Virus record (IMG/VR): IMGVR_UViG_3300025853_000833
Location: 1-20,795 of that record
Length of the DNA stretch: 20,795 nucleotides
Direction: 5' to 3' (one strand)
DNA from: a virus
Shown here: piece by piece, positions 3,146 through 18,105 of the stretch
Layout: each line of letters begins with the position of its first letter
Numbering within the stretch: position 1 is the stretch's first letter
The notes under the pieces: model-generated
What the model was told of the DNA's origin: nothing
Seen by the model: the letters and a program-made list of their open reading frames with translations, nothing else
The model's database searches: none
Translations under genes and position numbers: made by a program

Positions 3146-3751
3146 ATGGGTAAAACAGGAGGAGATAGGGTTTCTGAAAATTATAAAAAAGAACAACTTC
3201 TTATAGATAAAATAATATTAAAATATCAACAAAAAATTTGTAGTAAATGTGGAGTAATGACTCCTTTACATTTATTTACTAAATCTAAAAATAGAAGGTT
3301 AGGACTTGGAAGTATATGCCTGAATTGTAAAAAAATAAGCAATGTAAAAACTTTAAATACAGAAAGAGGTTATTTTAGTGAACTATTTCATAGTATGAAA
3401 AAATCAGTTAAAAGAAAAAAAGCACCTATGCTAGAGTTTGTTGATACAGATGATCTTTTAAACCATTGGAGAGAACAAGAAAAAATATTTGGTAACTACT
3501 GTCCTGGTCTTGGAATTGAAATGACTTTTATTAAAGGACACAATGAAGGAAAAGAAAAAAAGAAACTGCTTGATACCAATTGTTCAATCGACAGGATTTT
3601 ACCTTGGGAAGGTTATACAAAAACAAATACTATTTTTACTTCTTGGAAATACAACAATATGAAAGGTAATATGACACCAAAAGCTGCTTATAGTTATTTA
3701 CAAATGGTTAAACTAAGATATAATACTCATATCGTTAATACAGAAGAATGA
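3146..3751 (+). CDS. HNH-type endonuclease-like protein with zinc ribbon
   Basis: A 201-residue protein. Residues 32-61 form a zinc-binding pair, CSKC and CLNC. Residues 147-174 read SIDRI...GYTKTN...SWKYNNMKG, which resembles the HNH core in which a DR pair, an Asn about 12 residues later and an N-x-K motif line up around the metal. These enzymes nick or cut DNA and often occur in phages as free-standing homing endonucleases. The first histidine of the classic HNH is not obvious, so activity is uncertain. An AGGAGGAG lies just inside the reading frame after the ATG and is not positioned for this start. The stop overlaps the methyltransferase ATG as ATGA. Confidence 0.65.
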   Translation: MGKTGGDRVSENYKKEQLLIDKIILKYQQKICSKCGVMTPLHLFTKSKNRRLGLGSICLNCKKISNVKTLNTERGYFSELFHSMKKSVKRKKAPMLEFVDTDDLLNHWREQEKIFGNYCPGLGIEMTFIKGHNEGKEKKKLLDTNCSIDRILPWEGYTKTNTIFTSWKYNNMKGNMTPKAAYSYLQMVKLRYNTHIVNTEE

Positions 3752-5037
3752 AAATATTAGATTTATTTAGTGGTTTAGGTGGTTTTAGCCTAGGCTTAGA
3801 AAGAACAGGAAAGTATAAAACCGTAGCCTTTTGCGAAATGGATAAATATTGCAAATTAGTGCTGCAAAAACATTGGAAAGGAGTTAAGATATATAACGAT
3901 GTCAAAGAAATTACAAAAGAAAGACTCGAAGCAGATGGAGTTGAACTTCCCGAAATCATCACGGGTGGTTTCCCATGTCAGCCGTTCAGCGTCGCGGGTA
4001 AACAAAAAGGAACAAGTGATGATAGACATCTCTGGCCTGAGATGTTTCGAATCATCAAAGAGCTTAAGCCGAGGTGGGTTATTGGAGAAAATGTCAAAGG
4101 TCTTATTAACCTCGAAAACGGCATGGTCTTCGAAACTGTGTGCGCTAACTTGGAAGGAGAAGGATACGAAGTCAGGGCGTTCAATATTCCAGCTGCAGGT
4201 GTCGGCGCTCCCCATAGAAGAGAAAGAATTTGGATTATTGCCCACTCCGAAAGCGAGAGATTACAAAGGAGCAGAGGGCAAGAGAGTGGTGGAAACGCCA
4301 ACGGGTTTCAGCAAGATAAGGAAAGAATCAAAAGTGAAATACGGGGCGAGTCTGAACGACGTAGCAGAGCATTTGGATATGAAAATATGGAGAACTCCCG
4401 ACGCACATTGCGACAGGGGACCTTCATCGGAGAAACGAATGAAGATGAAATTAGAAAAGAAAATGCCAATCAGTCTGAACGATCAAGTGGCTCATCCGAA
4501 ATTAATGTGGCCAACGCCAACAGTGATCGATCGACCGAACGAGGGGAACGTTCGAATGCTACGCAAGAAGGTAATGGCGGGCGAGATATCGAGAGAAGAA
4601 GCGAAGAAGATGTTGGGCAAGGACGTATTCGAGAAACAGGGGAACGTACCGAAAATGATGTGGCCAACACCATCTCAAGGGATGTGGAAACAGGACGTGA
4701 ACGACAACGGGGAGTACGCAAAGAGAGTCAAGGACAAGGGACATCAAGTGATGTTACCAGCAGCGGTGAAACTGTGGCCAACACCGAGAGCAGCCATCGG
4801 AATGACAATGAAACTATCAGAGGGAATGGCGAAACTTCGACACAAGAAATATTTGGAGACGGAAGTAGCTTATGTGGAGAAAGCGCCTGGTGGGACTTTG
4901 AACCCAACGTGGGTCGAGTGGCTCATGGGATACCCGGCAGGGTACACAGACTTAAAGCATTGGGAAACTCTATCGTCCCCAAGATCGCGGAAGAAATCGG
5001 TAAAGCAATCATAGAAGCAGAAAATGAAGTGGAATAA
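3748..5037 (+). CDS. C5 cytosine DNA methyltransferase with degenerate target-recognition region
   Basis: A 429-residue protein of the Dcm/C5 family, which transfers a methyl group from AdoMet to cytosine C5. Motif I is DLFSGLGGF (5-13), motif IV GGFPCQPFS with catalytic Cys77, motif VI ENVKG (114-118), and motif VIII HRRERIW (156-162). The C-terminal RVHRLKALGNSIVP supplies the motif IX/X region. Between about 168 and 385, where a folded target-recognition domain is expected, the frame is a low-complexity Ser/Arg/Glu/Asn/Gly sequence with repeated VANxxS units. The same bases carry a long ORF in the +1 frame. The gene is visibly richer in GC than its neighbours. It probably acts in modification against host restriction. 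Its end overlaps the exonuclease start by 14 nt. Confidence 0.88.
   Translation: MKILDLFSGLGGFSLGLERTGKYKTVAFCEMDKYCKLVLQKHWKGVKIYNDVKEITKERLEADGVELPEIITGGFPCQPFSVAGKQKGTSDDRHLWPEMFRIIKELKPRWVIGENVKGLINLENGMVFETVCANLEGEGYEVRAFNIPAAGVGAPHRRERIWIIAHSESERLQRSRGQESGGNANGFQQDKERIKSEIRGESERRSRAFGYENMENSRRTLRQGTFIGETNEDEIRKENANQSERSSGSSEINVANANSDRSTERGERSNATQEGNGGRDIERRSEEDVGQGRIRETGERTENDVANTISRDVETGRERQRGVRKESQGQGTSSDVTSSGETVANTESSHRNDNETIRGNGETSTQEIFGDGSSLCGESAWWDFEPNVGRVAHGIPGRVHRLKALGNSIVPKIAEEIGKAIIEAENEVE
3899..5014 (+). CDS. Embedded +1-frame ORF with WPTP repeats, possible methyltransferase partner
   Basis: A 371-residue ORF lying wholly inside the methyltransferase gene, in the +1 frame. 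It is not random. The pattern LTWKEKDTKS...FQLQVS...GLLPTP is followed by repeated WPTP-type units: LLPTPKARD, IWRTPDAHC, MWPTPTVID, MWPTPSQGM and LWPTPRAAI. It ends with GGTLNPTWVEWLMGYP and TDL. I recognise this series from proteins encoded with or over phage C5 methyltransferases. Codons look fuller and less repetitive than in the other frame over 4240-4880. An AAAGGAG lies 15 nt before the ATG, a long spacing. The precedent is M.EcoHK31I, whose beta subunit is read from another frame of the alpha gene. It could still be a shadow kept open by the methyltransferase. Confidence 0.5.
   Translation: MSKKLQKKDSKQMELNFPKSSRVVSHVSRSASRVNKKEQVMIDISGLRCFESSKSLSRGGLLEKMSKVLLTSKTAWSSKLCALTWKEKDTKSGRSIFQLQVSALPIEEKEFGLLPTPKARDYKGAEGKRVVETPTGFSKIRKESKVKYGASLNDVAEHLDMKIWRTPDAHCDRGPSSEKRMKMKLEKKMPISLNDQVAHPKLMWPTPTVIDRPNEGNVRMLRKKVMAGEISREEAKKMLGKDVFEKQGNVPKMMWPTPSQGMWKQDVNDNGEYAKRVKDKGHQVMLPAAVKLWPTPRAAIGMTMKLSEGMAKLRHKKYLETEVAYVEKAPGGTLNPTWVEWLMGYPAGYTDLKHWETLSSPRSRKKSVKQS
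4506..4785 (+). repeat. Three 13-bp repeats TGTGGCCAACRCC in the overlap
   Basis: Copies lie at 4506-4518, 4659-4671 and 4773-4785. Each encodes VAN(A/T) in the methyltransferase frame and WPTP in the +1 frame. Related, more diverged units occur near 4241 (CCCACTCCG) and 4388 (TGGAGAACTCCC). Confidence 0.8.
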
Positions 5038-6552: not shown

Positions 6553-6933
6553 ATGGAAATTAAATCAACAGATATAAAAGACCATCAACAATACTGTTAC
6601 ACACAATGTCAGGTTAGTTGTAATAAACAAACTAAACATATGTTTGTTAACACAGAAGATAAAACACAAATTACTTTAGCGTGTTGTGAATGTGTTTTGA
6701 AAAAAACTAAATATACTTTTAACAAAAATGATATGACTATCATTAGTGCTATGATGGATTTGTTGAGTCAAAAATGTCTACCACTAAGTTGTAGTGAAGA
6801 AATAATCAAATATGTTAATAACAAACCAGGCTTTTATACAAAAATTAATTTGTATGAAATTTCTAGTTTTTTAGAAAAAGTTATTAAGTATGATGAAACA
6901 ATAAGAACCAGGGACAGTTTAAGAAAAGATTAA
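6553..6933 (+). CDS. Cysteine-containing protein, unknown
   Basis: A 126-residue protein. The N-terminal half carries many cysteines (CYTQC at 15-19, SC at 22-23, CCEC at 44-47), arranged like a metal site. The C-terminal half is helical and cysteine-poor except for CLPLSC. It has its own promoter and leader, so it is likely an early gene. It runs into the minus-strand terminase small subunit with a 4-nt tail overlap. No family is recognised. Confidence 0.6.
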   Translation: MEIKSTDIKDHQQYCYTQCQVSCNKQTKHMFVNTEDKTQITLACCECVLKKTKYTFNKNDMTIISAMMDLLSQKCLPLSCSEEIIKYVNNKPGFYTKINLYEISSFLEKVIKYDETIRTRDSLRKD

Positions 6934-7397
6934 GTGTTAGTTATTTCTGTGAAGTCAGCCTCAATAAGACCTTTGTTATCTTCAACGATCTTTTTCATTT
7001 TTTGAAGCCATTCGTTAGGGTCTTTTGAGTCTGATTGTTTTGTATGATGTATAATTTTTTGTTCAATATATAATCCTGCTGCCTTACCTCTAGCAATTTC
7101 TGCGTTGTTAGCTGCCGACCAAGATTTATTTTCTCTTGCCCCATCTCTGAGTCTTGCTAGTTCTGATATGTGGTTGTGATAAGTTACTTCGTATTTTCTC
7201 TGATACTCTTCTCTAATCTCATTAATATATTTTACAACCAATGGATATCTGTTTGGATTTCTAAGTTCTGATGCCCTTACATATGCCGATTCTTCTGCAT
7301 ACCCTGCTTCTATGGCACACTCTGTTGGCGTTTTTCTGCCTTCATTAACCACAAGCAATTGGGCAAATTTTATTTGCTGTTCTGTCAATTTCTTCAT
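6930..7397 (-). CDS. terS: Terminase small subunit (TerS-like)
   Basis: TerS binds the packaging site and loads TerL. The protein is about 155 residues, starting MKKLTEQQIKFAQLLVVNEG, then CAIEAGYAEESAYVRASELRNP and VVKYINEIREEY, the typical helix-turn-helix N-terminus of phage terminase small subunits. The C-terminal half is an alpha-helical, charged oligomerisation-type region. I chose the ATG at 7397, with GGGA just upstream; an in-frame ATG at 7406 adds three residues, and a longer start at 7442 would overlap the putative -35. It is encoded against the direction of the other packaging genes and lies about 4.4 kb from TerL, which is unusual. Confidence 0.8.
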   Translation of the reverse strand: MKKLTEQQIKFAQLLVVNEGRKTPTECAIEAGYAEESAYVRASELRNPNRYPLVVKYINEIREEYQRKYEVTYHNHISELARLRDGARENKSWSAANNAEIARGKAAGLYIEQKIIHHTKQSDSKDPNEWLQKMKKIVEDNKGLIEADFTEITNT

Positions 7398-7413
7398 TAA
7401 TCCCATAATTTGA

Positions 7414-7442
7414 CATTTAGAGTAAATAAGAGTAAAAGTCAA
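7414..7442 (-). promoter_or_regulatory. Possible promoter for the terminase small subunit
   Basis: On the minus strand, TTGACT (7442-7437), a 17-base spacer and TAAATG (7419-7414). The -35 matches the other promoters here; the -10 is poor. It would give a very short leader. Confidence 0.3.
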
Positions 7443-7711: not shown

Positions 7712-8080
7712 TTGAATCCTGAGAGAAAATTATGGCTAGATTTGAAAAAATCTTCCCCAAATATTGTTTGGAATAGAGTAGAAAATTTGGCAGTTCCAGG
7801 GCTTCCTGACTTGCTTGGATATAATAAAAATCAACGATTTTTCACATTAGAATTAAAAGTAAAACAGAGTAAAAAAGTGAGGTTCTCACCACACCAAATA
7901 GCCTTCCATGTGCTACATCCTAAGAACAGTTTTATCTTGGTAAAGGCCCTCGCTCCTTTACACTACAAACTTTTTGAAGGCTCCCGGATCGAGTCGCTTG
8001 TGACTTCTTTTGTAGATACCCCTTCGCTTGCGGGTGGCGAGTCGCTTGCGGCTTGCGTACTTTCGCTTGAGCGTTTGTAG
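7712..8080 (+). CDS. VRR-NUC-like PD-(D/E)XK nuclease with repeat-derived tail
   Basis: A 122-residue protein. Residues 22-50 (RVENLAVPGLPDLLGY...FFTLELKV) carry the PD-(D/E)XK core with Asp33, Glu47 and Lys49, and HQIAFH (61-66) fits the following helix. This matches the VRR-NUC/Holliday-resolvase-like group, whose members cut branched DNA. The only possible start is TTG at 7712, since a stop lies directly upstream in frame. After about residue 90 the tail is odd: four TCGCTTG words, all in the same phase, are read as Ser-Leu (ESLV, PSLA, ESLA, LSLE). The tail may be an accretion from the repeat field. Confidence 0.65.
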   Translation: MNPERKLWLDLKKSSPNIVWNRVENLAVPGLPDLLGYNKNQRFFTLELKVKQSKKVRFSPHQIAFHVLHPKNSFILVKALAPLHYKLFEGSRIESLVTSFVDTPSLAGGESLAACVLSLERL

Positions 8081-8220
8081 TTAGTAAAATGTTTTGTATT
8101 TTCCCTGTGGAGATCCTCTGCTGCTACGCTTGAGCCTTCGCTTGAGCGTTCGCCTGTGCGTGTACGTTTAGCTGCTCGCTTAAGTTTTTTGTAATAAGAA
8201 GGGTGGCGGAATACGTGCAT
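7963..8220 (-). CDS. Questionable minus-strand ORF built from CAAGCG repeats
   Basis: An 85-residue frame starting directly after the stop of the GP88-like gene (TAAATG). The first 25 residues are basic (MHVFRHPSYYKKLKRAAKR). The rest is a Ser/Glu/Thr-rich low-complexity tail in which each repeat is read as SSE, ASD or TSD. No Shine-Dalgarno sequence is seen, and it overlaps the tail of the nuclease on the other strand. Direct stop-start adjacency allows reinitiation, but it may be a by-product of the repeats. Confidence 0.25.
   Translation of the reverse strand: MHVFRHPSYYKKLKRAAKRTRTGERSSEGSSVAAEDLHRENTKHFTNYKRSSESTQAASDSPPASEGVSTKEVTSDSIREPSKSL
7994..8182 (+). repeat. TCGCTTG repeat field, left of the GP88-like gene
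   Basis: Exact TCGCTTG at 7994-8000, 8024-8030, 8042-8048, 8063-8069 and 8138-8144, with variants ACGCTTG at 8126, TCGCCTG near 8150 and TCGCTTA at 8176. Nearly all point the same way. The stretch is clearly more GC-rich than the surrounding genome. Confidence 0.75.
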
Positions 8221-8901
8221 TTAGTGCTTGCCATATGTTATATTTTTAATATCAGAATTCCAACATTTTCTACAATTTCCGCAATGGCCTAAATCTAGTT
8301 CTTTTTTCTGATCTTTAGTAAAAGCTTTAAAATTTTCTAAAGTGTGGACAGTCCCTGTTTTATCAGTTCTAAAAGCGGGGCAATTATCCTCGCTGTGGGT
8401 ACTTGATACTGTGGAAGTGTTAGGCCAGCTGCTTTGGGCCTGTTGGTCTATTAATGGTGCACTAAAACGAATGGTCAAGTTACCGGGAGCTCTCGCTACA
8501 TACTTTTTAAGCCACGCCTCACGCGTTGGCAGCCAGTGGCTTACTGTTGGCGTTTGCCTGCAAACTTTAAAAATTTTGGCTAAGTGTTTTAAGTGCTGTA
8601 CGTCTCCAGCGTCATGCCATCTAAAGTATTTTGATTTTTTAGAATTAATAATTGAAGACATGGCTTTAACCCATAGCGGGTGGCTGATGGCCTTCAGGCG
8701 CTTGTATTGTGCTTGCTTGATTGCTGAATATCTTGCGTAGTTACCTTTTAGGGCGTAACAGGTTGAGCAAACGCTGTTAGGAACCAGCCGAAGCTTACTA
8801 CCTGTTTTACACTCCCACGCGGGCAAGCCGTAAGCATGGCCCGGCATCTTAGAGGGTTTGCTTAAGCTACCTGTGATAAGTAATGCATTTTTAATTTTCA
8901 T
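8221..8901 (-). CDS. GP88-like protein (phage gene product 88 family)
   Basis: A 226-residue minus-strand protein. The pattern matches the GP88-type family of phage proteins: GLPAWEC (25-31), VCSTCYALKGNY (44-55), a conserved FRWHDAGD (93-100), SHWLPTREAW (121-130) and a C-terminal CGNCRKCW (207-214). The clustered cysteines suggest a metal or iron-sulfur site; the biochemical role of the family is not established to my knowledge. It has its own consensus promoter 13 nt before the ATG, with almost no leader and no Shine-Dalgarno sequence. With its opposite orientation, private promoter and flanking repeats, it looks like a mobile 'moron' cassette. Confidence 0.65.
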   Translation of the reverse strand: MKIKNALLITGSLSKPSKMPGHAYGLPAWECKTGSKLRLVPNSVCSTCYALKGNYARYSAIKQAQYKRLKAISHPLWVKAMSSIINSKKSKYFRWHDAGDVQHLKHLAKIFKVCRQTPTVSHWLPTREAWLKKYVARAPGNLTIRFSAPLIDQQAQSSWPNTSTVSSTHSEDNCPAFRTDKTGTVHTLENFKAFTKDQKKELDLGHCGNCRKCWNSDIKNITYGKH

Positions 8902-8914
8902 AATTTCTAGATCC

Positions 8915-8943
8915 TATATAGTCCCTTTTCCAGGCGTTGTCAA
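8915..8943 (-). promoter_or_regulatory. Sigma70-type promoter of the GP88-like gene
   Basis: On the minus strand, TTGACA (8943-8938), exactly 17 bases, then TATATA (8920-8915), followed by GGATC. Transcription would begin only about 5-8 nt before the ATG at 8901. Confidence 0.75.
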
Positions 8944-9175
8944 GGCTGGAAGCAGCTGGCTTAACAAATTTTTTAAGTATTTGGTGATATCTTTTTGAAA
9001 ACAGCGTGGGCCAGCTTCACCGGGTCGCTTGCAACTTTCGCGAATAGAGGCAAGCGAACAGCAGCGGAGCTGCTCGCTTGTCGCTTGTGATTTTCTAACC
9101 TTTTTAAAATGTAATAAGATACCAGAGAGCTCTCGCTTGTGCCTTGTTAGTAAAAATAAAAATAAACCTTTAAAA
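8944..9175. other. Intergenic region with no gene
   Basis: Part of the 416-nt gap between the divergent genes at 8901 and 9318. I find no ORF with support here. It holds the right-hand TCGCTTG field and an imperfect cruciform at 9051-9080 (CAAGCG/CGCTTG and AGCAGC/GCTGCT arms around GGA). The remainder of the gap holds the terminator and promoter listed separately. Confidence 0.6.
9025..9139. repeat. TCGCTTG repeat field, right of the GP88-like gene
   Basis: Exact copies at 9025-9031, 9074-9080, 9081-9087 and 9133-9139, and an inverted copy (CAAGCGA) at 9051-9057. The inverted copy and the one at 9074 form the arms of a bulged hairpin. Confidence 0.75.
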
Positions 9176-9225
9176 TAAAAAACCCACTTTGGACATTTAG
9201 AACACCAAAATGGGTTTTTATTATT
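9176..9225 (+). terminator. Hairpin terminator, probably bidirectional
   Basis: AAAACCCACTTTGG (9179-9192) pairs with CCAAAATGGGTTTT (9205-9218) with one mismatch around a 12-nt loop, followed by a T-rich run (TTTTTATTATT). The A-run on the left makes it usable from either side. It separates the GP88 cassette from the operon beginning at 9318. Confidence 0.6.
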
Positions 9226-9262
9226 AACAGAAAAGATTTACTTTTCATTATCCTATATAATC

Positions 9263-9313
9263 CCCTTGACAATAATTTCAAGGGCGTGCTATAACTTTTT
9301 TTAACAGAAAGGA
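9263..9313 (+). promoter_or_regulatory. Promoter with operator-like inverted repeat and ACAGAAAGGA leader
   Basis: TTGACA (9266-9271), an 18-base spacer, TATAAC (9290-9295). A perfect 7-bp inverted repeat, CCCTTGA (9263-9269) and TCAAGGG (9278-9284), straddles the -35 and spacer and would suit a repressor dimer. ACAGAAAGGA at 9304-9313 precedes the ATG by 4 nt. A TCCTATATAAT element lies just upstream at 9251. Confidence 0.65.
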
Positions 9314-9317
9314 AAAT

Positions 9318-10253
9318 ATGGCTAAACTAGCACTAAACGCTGAAAGGCGAAACTCGATTGGGAATGTAATCGAGGAACATTTTCGTAATAAAGATAGTAT
9401 TGCAAAAAGAAATTGGGATAATGCTATTCAAAATTACGAAAGCAATCGACCTCTCATTGAACGATTAATTGAAACAGTAGTTCGTATGCACCAACCTCAA
9501 AATGATGTTGATACGATTAAAACTATGATTAGTCGTTATGGGGATAGTGGTGGAAACATTTATTCAGATAATTGTTTTTACTTTACTGCCCCTGACTATG
9601 ACGAGGACGGCAAAAGAAAAGAGGACGACAAATCAGTTCATATTTCGTTTAAGTTAGAAAGAGACTTTGCTTATTCTTATTTTGATAAAAAAATAAGAGA
9701 CGCAAACCTTGACCCTAACAATGAACACAAATATGGAAGTAATACAAATCCTAGATATAACCAAATGCAAAATGACATTGGAAAATTTTTAGGATTTAGG
9801 TCGTCAAGTAATGATGACGCGAGCAAAGCAAATATTGCGTCTCAATGGGACGACAAGTTTAGACTTGAAGTGATTGGCACTTCTTATTGTCATAGTAGAC
9901 AATTTGGAGTGAACGAAACCGACTTTCAAGTTTTGAATAATTTTAAAATTATTCAGGAACAAGTCGTTCAAACTCACGAGGCATTTTACGATTATATAAA
10001 ATCTAAAATGGATAAGGTGAGACTAGGTCTGAAATCTTATAAGTATTTCGATCAAGCAAAAGAGTTGTGTGATAATTTGGGGATTGCTTTAAATGAAAGT
10101 ATCTTAAATGAAAAATCATCTTTAGCATTATCCATTTATAACCCTACTGCCCTTGCAGATATACTTAAAGATAATGACATAGAAAACGCAGACAAAAAGG
10201 CGTCAATAATTGCTAAATTCAAAAAAGGGGAATTAAATCAGGCAATTAATTAA
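9318..10253 (+). CDS. Hypothetical phage protein, 311 residues
   Basis: A 311-residue soluble protein, the largest unknown in the window. The N-terminal 60 residues are helical and charged (LNAERRNSIGNVIEEHF...). The middle is Asp/Asn-rich with aromatic beta-type stretches (NIYSDNCFYFTAPDYDEDGK, SVHISFKLERDFAYSYF). The last 100 residues are helical and end in KGELNQAIN. No signal peptide, membrane segment or catalytic motif is recognised. It is the first gene of the 9318-11573 operon and has a strong promoter and ribosome site, so it is probably abundant early in infection. Confidence 0.75.
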   Translation: MAKLALNAERRNSIGNVIEEHFRNKDSIAKRNWDNAIQNYESNRPLIERLIETVVRMHQPQNDVDTIKTMISRYGDSGGNIYSDNCFYFTAPDYDEDGKRKEDDKSVHISFKLERDFAYSYFDKKIRDANLDPNNEHKYGSNTNPRYNQMQNDIGKFLGFRSSSNDDASKANIASQWDDKFRLEVIGTSYCHSRQFGVNETDFQVLNNFKIIQEQVVQTHEAFYDYIKSKMDKVRLGLKSYKYFDQAKELCDNLGIALNESILNEKSSLALSIYNPTALADILKDNDIENADKKASIIAKFKKGELNQAIN

Positions 10254-17560: not shown

Positions 17561-17856
17561 GAAAATATTTTAAAAATGGAAGTACACCAGCGTGGACAAG
17601 AAAAGAAGGTAAATCAGCTTCAGGCGGTTTGAATAGAAAAGGAATTGCATCTTATAGAAGAGCAAATCCTGGTTCAAAACTTTCAATGGCCGTTACTACC
17701 AAGCCATCGAAATTAAAAAAAGGTAGCAAAGCAGCAAACAGAAGAAAGTCTTTCTGTGCCCGAATGACTGGGATGAAAAAGAGATTAACTTCTGCAAAAA
17801 CAGCAAGAGATCCAAATTCTAGAATTAATAAATCTTTAAGAAAATGGAATTGCTAA
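17557..17856 (+). CDS. Basic phage protein, DUF6321-like
   Basis: A 99-residue, strongly basic protein. KSASGGLNRKGIASYRRANPGSKL (19-42) and NRRKSFCARMTGM...DPNSRINKSLRKWNC (61-99) match the family pattern GGLN..G...YR.....L...V......R..SFCARM.GM...DPNSRIN.SLRKW.C. Two or three conserved cysteines could bind metal. It is the last of the small basic series before the chaperone-scaffold block. Function is unknown; I call the family from memory. Confidence 0.65.
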   Translation: MRKYFKNGSTPAWTRKEGKSASGGLNRKGIASYRRANPGSKLSMAVTTKPSKLKKGSKAANRRKSFCARMTGMKKRLTSAKTARDPNSRINKSLRKWNC

Positions 17857-17865
17857 AGGAGATAA

Positions 17866-18105
17866 ATGCAAGACTTAGAAATAATAGCTAAAATACAGAA
17901 ACAGTTAAAACAATTATATCAAAATGTTGGTGACTCTATGATGAGTGGAGGCGTTGACAATATGGAAAAATACAAGTATATGTTAGGACAGGCACATGCC
18001 TACCAATATATTTCACAGGAAATCTCTAACCTGCTAAACACAAAGGAGCAAAAAGATGAGCAAGGAACAATTATCGACTTTGGAAAAGGAAATTCCAAAA
18101 CATAA
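17866..18105 (+). CDS. Small helical phage protein, unknown
   Basis: A 79-residue helical protein (QDLEIIAKIQKQLKQLYQNVGDSMMSGGVDN...). The first 65 residues look like a two-helix hairpin joined by the Gly-rich turn MMSGGVDNMEKYKYMLGQ. An AAGGAG lies 6 nt before the ATG. The last 50 nt overlap the GroES-like gene, so the two are coupled. No known domain. Confidence 0.6.
   Translation: MQDLEIIAKIQKQLKQLYQNVGDSMMSGGVDNMEKYKYMLGQAHAYQYISQEISNLLNTKEQKDEQGTIIDFGKGNSKT

Follow-up and report, generated by a model that had tools for sequence, protein, structure and literature searches.

The DNA analysed here, which we refer to as the window, is a 20,795-base (20.8 kb) stretch of virus DNA, record IMGVR_UViG_3300025853_000833. 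Around the locus of interest its genes run in the order TerS (minus strand), a small gene, VRR-NUC (plus), GP88 (minus), a conserved 311-aa gene and TerL, and the same order is found in Pelagibacter phage HTVC027P and in phage 023Pt_psg01. Coordinates are collected in Table 1. The GP88 protein of the window matches PF17338 with E = 1.3e-26 (94.3 bits, against a gathering cut-off of 24.4); its AlphaFold model has a pLDDT of 74, and a fold search with it returned no PDB match better than E = 0.03. The VRR-NUC protein is modelled with a pLDDT of 88, and the top PDB matches of this model are archaeal Hjc enzymes, with the VRR_NUC structure 4qbn matched too.

Table 1. Features of the locus, in window coordinates
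Feature	Position	Strand	Remarks
Terminase small subunit gene	6930..7442	-	phrog_51; in most relatives it neighbours the locus
VRR-NUC / Hjc-like Holliday-junction-resolvase-fold nuclease gene	7712..8080	+	phrog_2165; array runs through the last codons
gp32-like small ORF (MHVFRHPSYYKKLK..., 'MH.F.HP.YYK')	7963..8220	-	Second gene of the minus-strand unit, after GP88
Left field (array A)	7994..8146	+	GCTTG at 7996, 8026, 8044, 8051, 8065, 8128, 8140
GP88-family gene (PF17338), homologue of HTVC027P gp33	8221..8901	-	Profile match
GP88 promoter	8913..8943	-	TTGACA (8943-8938), N17, TATATA (8920-8915)
Right field (array B)	9025..9139	+	GCTTG at 9027, 9076, 9083, 9135
Bidirectional terminator-like hairpin	9177..9221 (hairpin 9182-9215)	.	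ACCCACTTTGG/CCAAAATGGGT, T-runs both ways
Divergent promoter pair	9254..9295	.	Serves the minus strand and the right-hand plus-strand genes
Conserved 311-aa gene (HTVC027P gp35)	9318..10253	+	Right-hand bound of the island

A sequence-only reading of this DNA had singled out the word TCGCTTG, reporting ten copies in two fields, and we find the same number: nine copies on the plus strand and one on the minus strand, all within 7994-9139. A comparison with a shuffled background gives 1.45 expected copies (dinucleotide shuffles of the whole window), and none of 100 shuffles reaches ten; when the local 1.2 kb is shuffled alone, 0.2 copies are expected and the maximum in 1000 shuffles is three. Two independent contigs, L005 and L006, bear the same ten copies, so these are not an assembly artefact. 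The surroundings are largely as described: the fields are GC-rich (42-48%, against 32-37% to either side), GP88 lies on the opposite strand with a promoter of its own (TTGACA-N17-TATATA, 8943-8915), and a terminator-like element lies beyond the right field, in the form of the bidirectional hairpin at 9182-9215. Contrary to what had been claimed, GP88 is not alone between the fields: it is followed by another minus-strand ORF (gp32-like, 7963-8220), which contains the left field.

The left field is decayed and irregularly spaced. It spans the VRR-NUC stop codon at 8080 and overlaps the tail of the minus-strand gp32-like ORF together with the antisense nuclease tail. The right field has the GP88 promoter on one side and, on the other, a minus-strand leader unit that lies upstream, and it includes one inverted copy (9051-9057) which forms a hairpin at 9051-9080. 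The leader-like unit itself (9177-9259) is short and has its own promoter and bidirectional terminator; the hairpin that ends it was missed by simple terminator scans and was identified from the sequence. On its minus side the divergent promoter pair has a -10 box TATATA at 9259-9254 and a TTGAAA-like -35 box, and on its plus side TTGACA at 9266-9271 and TATAAC at 9290-9295; no array lies upstream of the pair in the window, and the same array-free pair is seen in relatives. An Rfam search returned nothing at the arrays and only a sub-threshold PyrR-like score (33.5 bits, gathering cut-off 54) at 9175-9287.

Comparison with related phages shows that the true unit is a GCTTG core plus a free spacer, and that the leading TC of TCGCTTG is incidental. 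An array of one polarity with the core GCTTG (CAAGC on the minus strand) is present in about 110 loci of related phages, counted as those with both VRR-NUC and GP88. In interval A, which we define as the nuclease domain to the 3' end of GP88 (32 kb in total), these relatives have 1396 GCTTG on the plus strand against three on the minus strand; in interval B, the 500 bp upstream of GP88, the corresponding numbers are 629 and 118, and the rest of the loci contains GCTTG at approximately 0.6-0.9 per kb. The most frequent core-to-core spacing is 7 nt (828 cases in interval A, 344 in interval B), with the two bases between cores so spaced being almost random; some lineages have octads, in which 8-nt spacing leaves a 3-nt spacer, and spacings of 7 and 8 are mixed within arrays. 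Copy number is approximately 13 at the downstream end of the minus-strand island and approximately 3-7 between units inside it.

The homologous places in HTVC027P bear GCTTGAAGCTTGAGGCTTG-type arrays, not TCGCTTG. All 16 forward pairs of cores in that genome lie at 16.5-17.7 kb, and 10 of its 33 GCTTG lie outside the island; a whole-record scan of a 56 kb relative (G002) found ten forward pairs and no reverse pair, all at 51.3-52.3 kb, and the reversed-pattern control gave no match in any of the 18 whole records scanned. A search of 2.9 million contigs with a pattern of four consecutive heptads returned at least 119 viral loci, and 113 of the 119 listed have the VRR-NUC or GP88 of this group. 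The arrays are thus real, polar and found at one locus per genome, in relatives of a phage group that ranks among the most abundant in the ocean. The window shares gene order, and arrays at homologous places, with the gp29-gp35 locus of HTVC027P (HTVC023P-type), but differs from it in lacking gp34 and regular array spacing, and belongs to a separate lineage. Because that lineage is nested within a heptad clade in a tree of the nuclease domain, we regard the window's array as a decayed copy. Among the open papers searched on the phage group of HTVC027P, none describes these arrays, and a literature search by array words returned only unrelated primer-like matches.

We compared core and spacer positions between related phages, labelling cores on one member of each pair; as the loci are related, the comparisons are many and the independent events are not, and with this caution core positions change in 0.7% of cases, spacers in 30% and other positions of the intervals in 15%. 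For the first, second and third codon positions inside the nuclease ORF, change in the core is 8.6%, 8.5% and 9.6% respectively, against 30% at third positions of the nuclease domain and 27-60% in spacers in the same comparison. Beyond the nuclease stop codon the core changes in 10.7% and spacers in 56%, and in octad lineages the values are 2.4% and 27%. Since conservation of the core ignores codon position and extends into non-coding DNA, selection must act on the nucleic acid: on these comparisons the GCTTG core is selected as such, and the spacer is not. The possibility that the fields are protein-binding arrays, one of three raised by the sequence-only reading, gains support at the nucleic-acid level from this combination of conserved core and free spacer.

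Protein-level constraint is present in the nuclease tail as well. The repeat-encoded tail is modelled as two helices (pLDDT 79-93), and its pattern L.A.GL.L.AC..GL.AC.L.LE.L is retained in array-free clades; protein and nucleic-acid constraints therefore overlap there. The sequence-only reading held that the repeats had been drawn into this tail, always in phase. Repeats are indeed superimposed on it, but the tail is itself a conserved and confidently folded part of the protein; of the copies of TCGCTTG, the four that lie within the VRR-NUC ORF keep the phase, and the GCTTG at 8051 breaks it. Across relatives the core occupies all three frames (326, 275 and 215 cases). Protein selection on the tail was rejected as the sole cause of the arrays, because conservation of the core does not vary with codon position and is as strong past the stop.

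A spreading short repeat had also been suggested. Of 492 pairs of neighbouring spacers, 11 (2.2%) are identical, whereas 7.4% would be expected by chance, and arrays whose neighbours are alike less often than by chance are not products of slippage. Among cellular look-alikes retrieved by the same pattern search, neighbouring units are identical in 328 of 402 cases (82%). For instance, runs of GCTTGCA or GCTTGTA in Pseudomonas are GCTTGNN heptads by pattern, like the phage arrays, but have the neighbour identity of slippage repeats. That many bacteria have slippage-made heptads of this kind, and that an amino-acid pattern is conserved in the nuclease tail, could be taken to favour a spreading or slippage repeat, or a by-product of protein selection on the tail; the divergence of neighbouring spacers, the codon-flat conservation of the core past the stop codon and the presence of arrays in non-coding B intervals make either origin scarcely credible, and we rule out slippage on the spacer statistics. 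Less-than-chance spacer identity and codon-flat core conservation together tell a selected spaced-core array from a simple repeat. The bacterial loci (L165-L282) comprise runs of identical GCTTGNN in Pseudomonas, Stutzerimonas, Halomonas, Alcanivorax and others, and are simple slippage repeats.

The third suggestion was a mobile-cassette boundary around GP88, with the proposal that genomes with and without the gene be compared. Of 168 GP88 loci, 166 have array A, taken as at least three cores; so do 31 of 61 loci without GP88 (at least three cores, beside VRR-NUC). In one locus, L110, the same nuclease-tail array and an array-plus-promoter surround entirely different minus-strand genes, and in the GP88-less L145 each of the small minus-strand genes has a tail that contains CAAGC. 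The repeats do not leave with GP88; their presence at sites without the gene, which the sequence-only reading had itself named as a refutation, weakens the mobile-cassette idea and contradicts a boundary specific to GP88; as arrays persist without GP88 or with other cargo, they belong to the slot and not to the gene. The slot between arrays holds variable cargo: the GP88 unit, the L110 operon or, in L145, a many-gene operon. This variability, and the predicted Holliday-junction-resolvase fold of the adjoining nuclease, would suit arrays that served as short homology or as nuclease targets, perhaps of the Hjc-like VRR-NUC, for swapping minus-strand cargo. We consider such exchange improbable, as homology explains neither a fixed core with free spacers nor the less-than-chance likeness of neighbours, and most relatives keep both GP88 and the gene order. 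The runs of small minus-strand genes in GP88-less loci (L145 5900-8310 and L127 300-1300) include many that end in (E)QASEQKG or something very similar. This is due to a linker, CAAGCGAGCGAGCAGAAGGGATAATATG, which comprises a CAAGC word, a Shine-Dalgarno sequence and ATG and is repeated between the genes.

With promoters and transcription units assigned by consensus, arrays accompany 66 of 71 inner minus-strand promoters (66:5) but only one of 55 first (outermost) minus-strand promoters, those of the divergent pair (1:54). Arrays other than A adjoin a minus-strand -35 box in 196 of 285 cases, against 1.9% of random positions, and in 122 of the 196 the array is fused to the -35 box exactly, as CAAGC-TTGACA. 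HTVC027P has two inner promoters with adjoining arrays, and an array precedes each of gp33 and gp34; published transcriptomes place these two genes (gp33 being GP88) in a separate temporal expression cluster (PMC12753301). As inner promoters have arrays and the first promoter does not, each array lies downstream of a minus-strand unit. On this consensus mapping, the arrays stand between minus-strand units and at their 3' ends, with array A closing the island. An operator of every minus-strand promoter was rejected, the first promoter having no array.

The polarity of the arrays, their restriction to one locus per genome and the presence of TerS approximately 0.5 kb away in nearly all relatives could also be read as marks of a packaging site, with the arrays as the pac/cos recognition site of the small terminase. 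Several separate arrays per genome are found, however, fused to promoters, and L139 and L141 have the same TerS and TerL but no arrays; we judge a packaging site very improbable.

Intrinsic terminators on the minus strand are rare at the array A junction: five of 167 loci have one, against 1.4 in shuffled sequences. The gp32-like minus-strand ORFs of relatives contain at least three CAAGC in 88 of 89 cases; CAAGC-NN heptads are stop-free in every minus-strand frame, so the ORF over array A may be open by default. In the window a terminator-like sequence on the minus strand, GGTGTGGTGAGAACCTCACTTTTTTACT (approximately 7871-7898), lies just past the decayed left array in this one lineage only, as if compensating for the decay. 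Arrays at 3' ends that have no intrinsic terminators might be Rho utilisation (rut) sites in the minus-strand RNA, forming a generic Rho-dependent terminator, and the array RNA, having no complementary words, should be unstructured. Yet the minus strand is not rich in C over G (C 26%, G 23%), the base preceding each C has no pyrimidine bias, and Rho needs no almost invariant 5-nt core. We rejected rut sites on composition (C over G, spaced YC) and regard a Rho-based explanation as decidedly improbable.

The conserved core with its free spacer thus points to what may be a recognition site not described before, placed at the ends of a gene island that is transcribed separately. Our best reading, held with somewhat less than even confidence, is an array for a multimeric protein that punctuates the minus-strand island by terminating or insulating its units. 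Such a protein would bind many GCTTG/CAAGC cores at once. Once bound, it would end the minus-strand units or insulate them from one another and from VRR-NUC, the gene that converges on them, so that the array would take over the role of intrinsic terminators. A plausible target would be (CAAGC-NN)n in nascent minus-strand RNA. Protein binding, the multimeric state, a target of RNA and not DNA, and termination or insulation as the effect are all features that we infer.

The closest precedent on the RNA side is TRAP, whose sites in the Bacillus trp leader are 11 copies of (G/U)AG with 2-3-nt spacers; when it is bound to nascent RNA, TRAP can bring about termination of transcription (PMC3913778). 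The phage arrays resemble these sites in having many short fixed cores (approximately 11-14 copies) of one polarity with 2-3 free spacer nucleotides. They differ in their core, which has 5 nt (GCTTG/CAAGC) where that of TRAP has 3 nt, in a pitch of 7-8 against 5-6, and in standing at the 3' ends of units whereas TRAP sites lie in the leader. An RNA target is favoured to the extent that the free spacer of 2-3 nt follows the design of TRAP sites and that TRAP is able to act as a terminator. A fuller version, in which a multimeric RNA-binding factor of phage or host origin would read (CAAGC-N2-3)n on the nascent minus-strand RNA and terminate transcription, is rather unlikely as a whole. If true, it would define a sequence-specific, array-programmed class of terminators, TRAP-like but placed constitutively between genes, in very abundant ocean phages.

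Two points count against the punctuation reading: ribosomes translating the minus-strand ORF over array A could strip an RNA-bound protein, and the fusion of arrays to the -35 box would fit a DNA-level regulator equally well. On that alternative, a small omega/ParB-like dimer (ribbon-helix-helix or similar) would coat unspaced heptads beside promoters as an operator or centromere. It would regulate the promoters of GP88 and gp34 and might also position the DNA, with array A as a reservoir or loop partner. The precedent is the parS of pSM19035, which consists of 7-10 unspaced non-palindromic 7-bp repeats at promoters, is bound by omega (a ribbon-helix-helix ParB) and requires at least four contiguous repeats for full activity (PMC9499535). 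The phage arrays recall it in part, with unspaced, non-palindromic 7-bp direct repeats and several arrays at promoters; they adjoin the -35 boxes of inner minus-strand promoters, often in one register, and HTVC027P has two such promoters. A DNA target is favoured to the extent that the -35 fusion and the 7-bp pitch recall the omega/parS heptads. However, the phage core is GCTTG and not WATCACW, two of its seven positions are free, and 8-nt and mixed 7/8 spacings are found in place of a fixed 7-bp pitch. The island's first promoter has no array in 54 of 55 cases and the largest array (A) lies away from promoters, which argues against a plain operator. Pfam and PHROGs scans of ten HTVC027P proteins gave no DNA- or RNA-binding candidate; neither omega nor ParA, nor any ribbon-helix-helix protein, was found among the ten. 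We therefore consider a DNA-level operator or centromere unlikely, though a serious contender. The arrays are best described, on their sequence, as probable spaced-core recognition arrays that belong to neither the TRAP nor the omega system. Being strongly selected, confined to one locus and linked to a gene island with a timing of its own, the array lends itself to direct testing.

Several further observations were made at these loci. A palindrome, TTAGAATNATTCTAA, is present in 66 of 282 phage loci (including L050, L056, L075, L077, L081, L084, L323, L353, L384, L398 and L400), often next to arrays and promoters, and in none of 118 cellular control loci; a related palindrome, TTTAGAATTGTT, follows the nuclease stop in the array-free L137 and L139. 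The former resembles alphaproteobacterial Irr/Fur iron boxes, and iron control of the island is possible. In HTVC027P, positions 17753-17873 (L003 5529-5649, minus strand) match the Rfam RNA RF02976 'Flavobacterium-1' with 90 bits (gathering cut-off 58.9), just upstream of the array of gp34; the match was not found in 12 other loci. Elsewhere in the window, a 371-aa ORF (3899-5014, plus strand) that matches the phrog_1008 methyltransferase family (E = 1.5e-28) shares 1.1 kb, read in a different frame, with a C5-methyltransferase gene (3748-5037, plus strand; PF00145, E = 1e-52). This is apparently a case of dual coding of two family-recognised proteins, and the 371-aa ORF has tblastn relatives in other phages.
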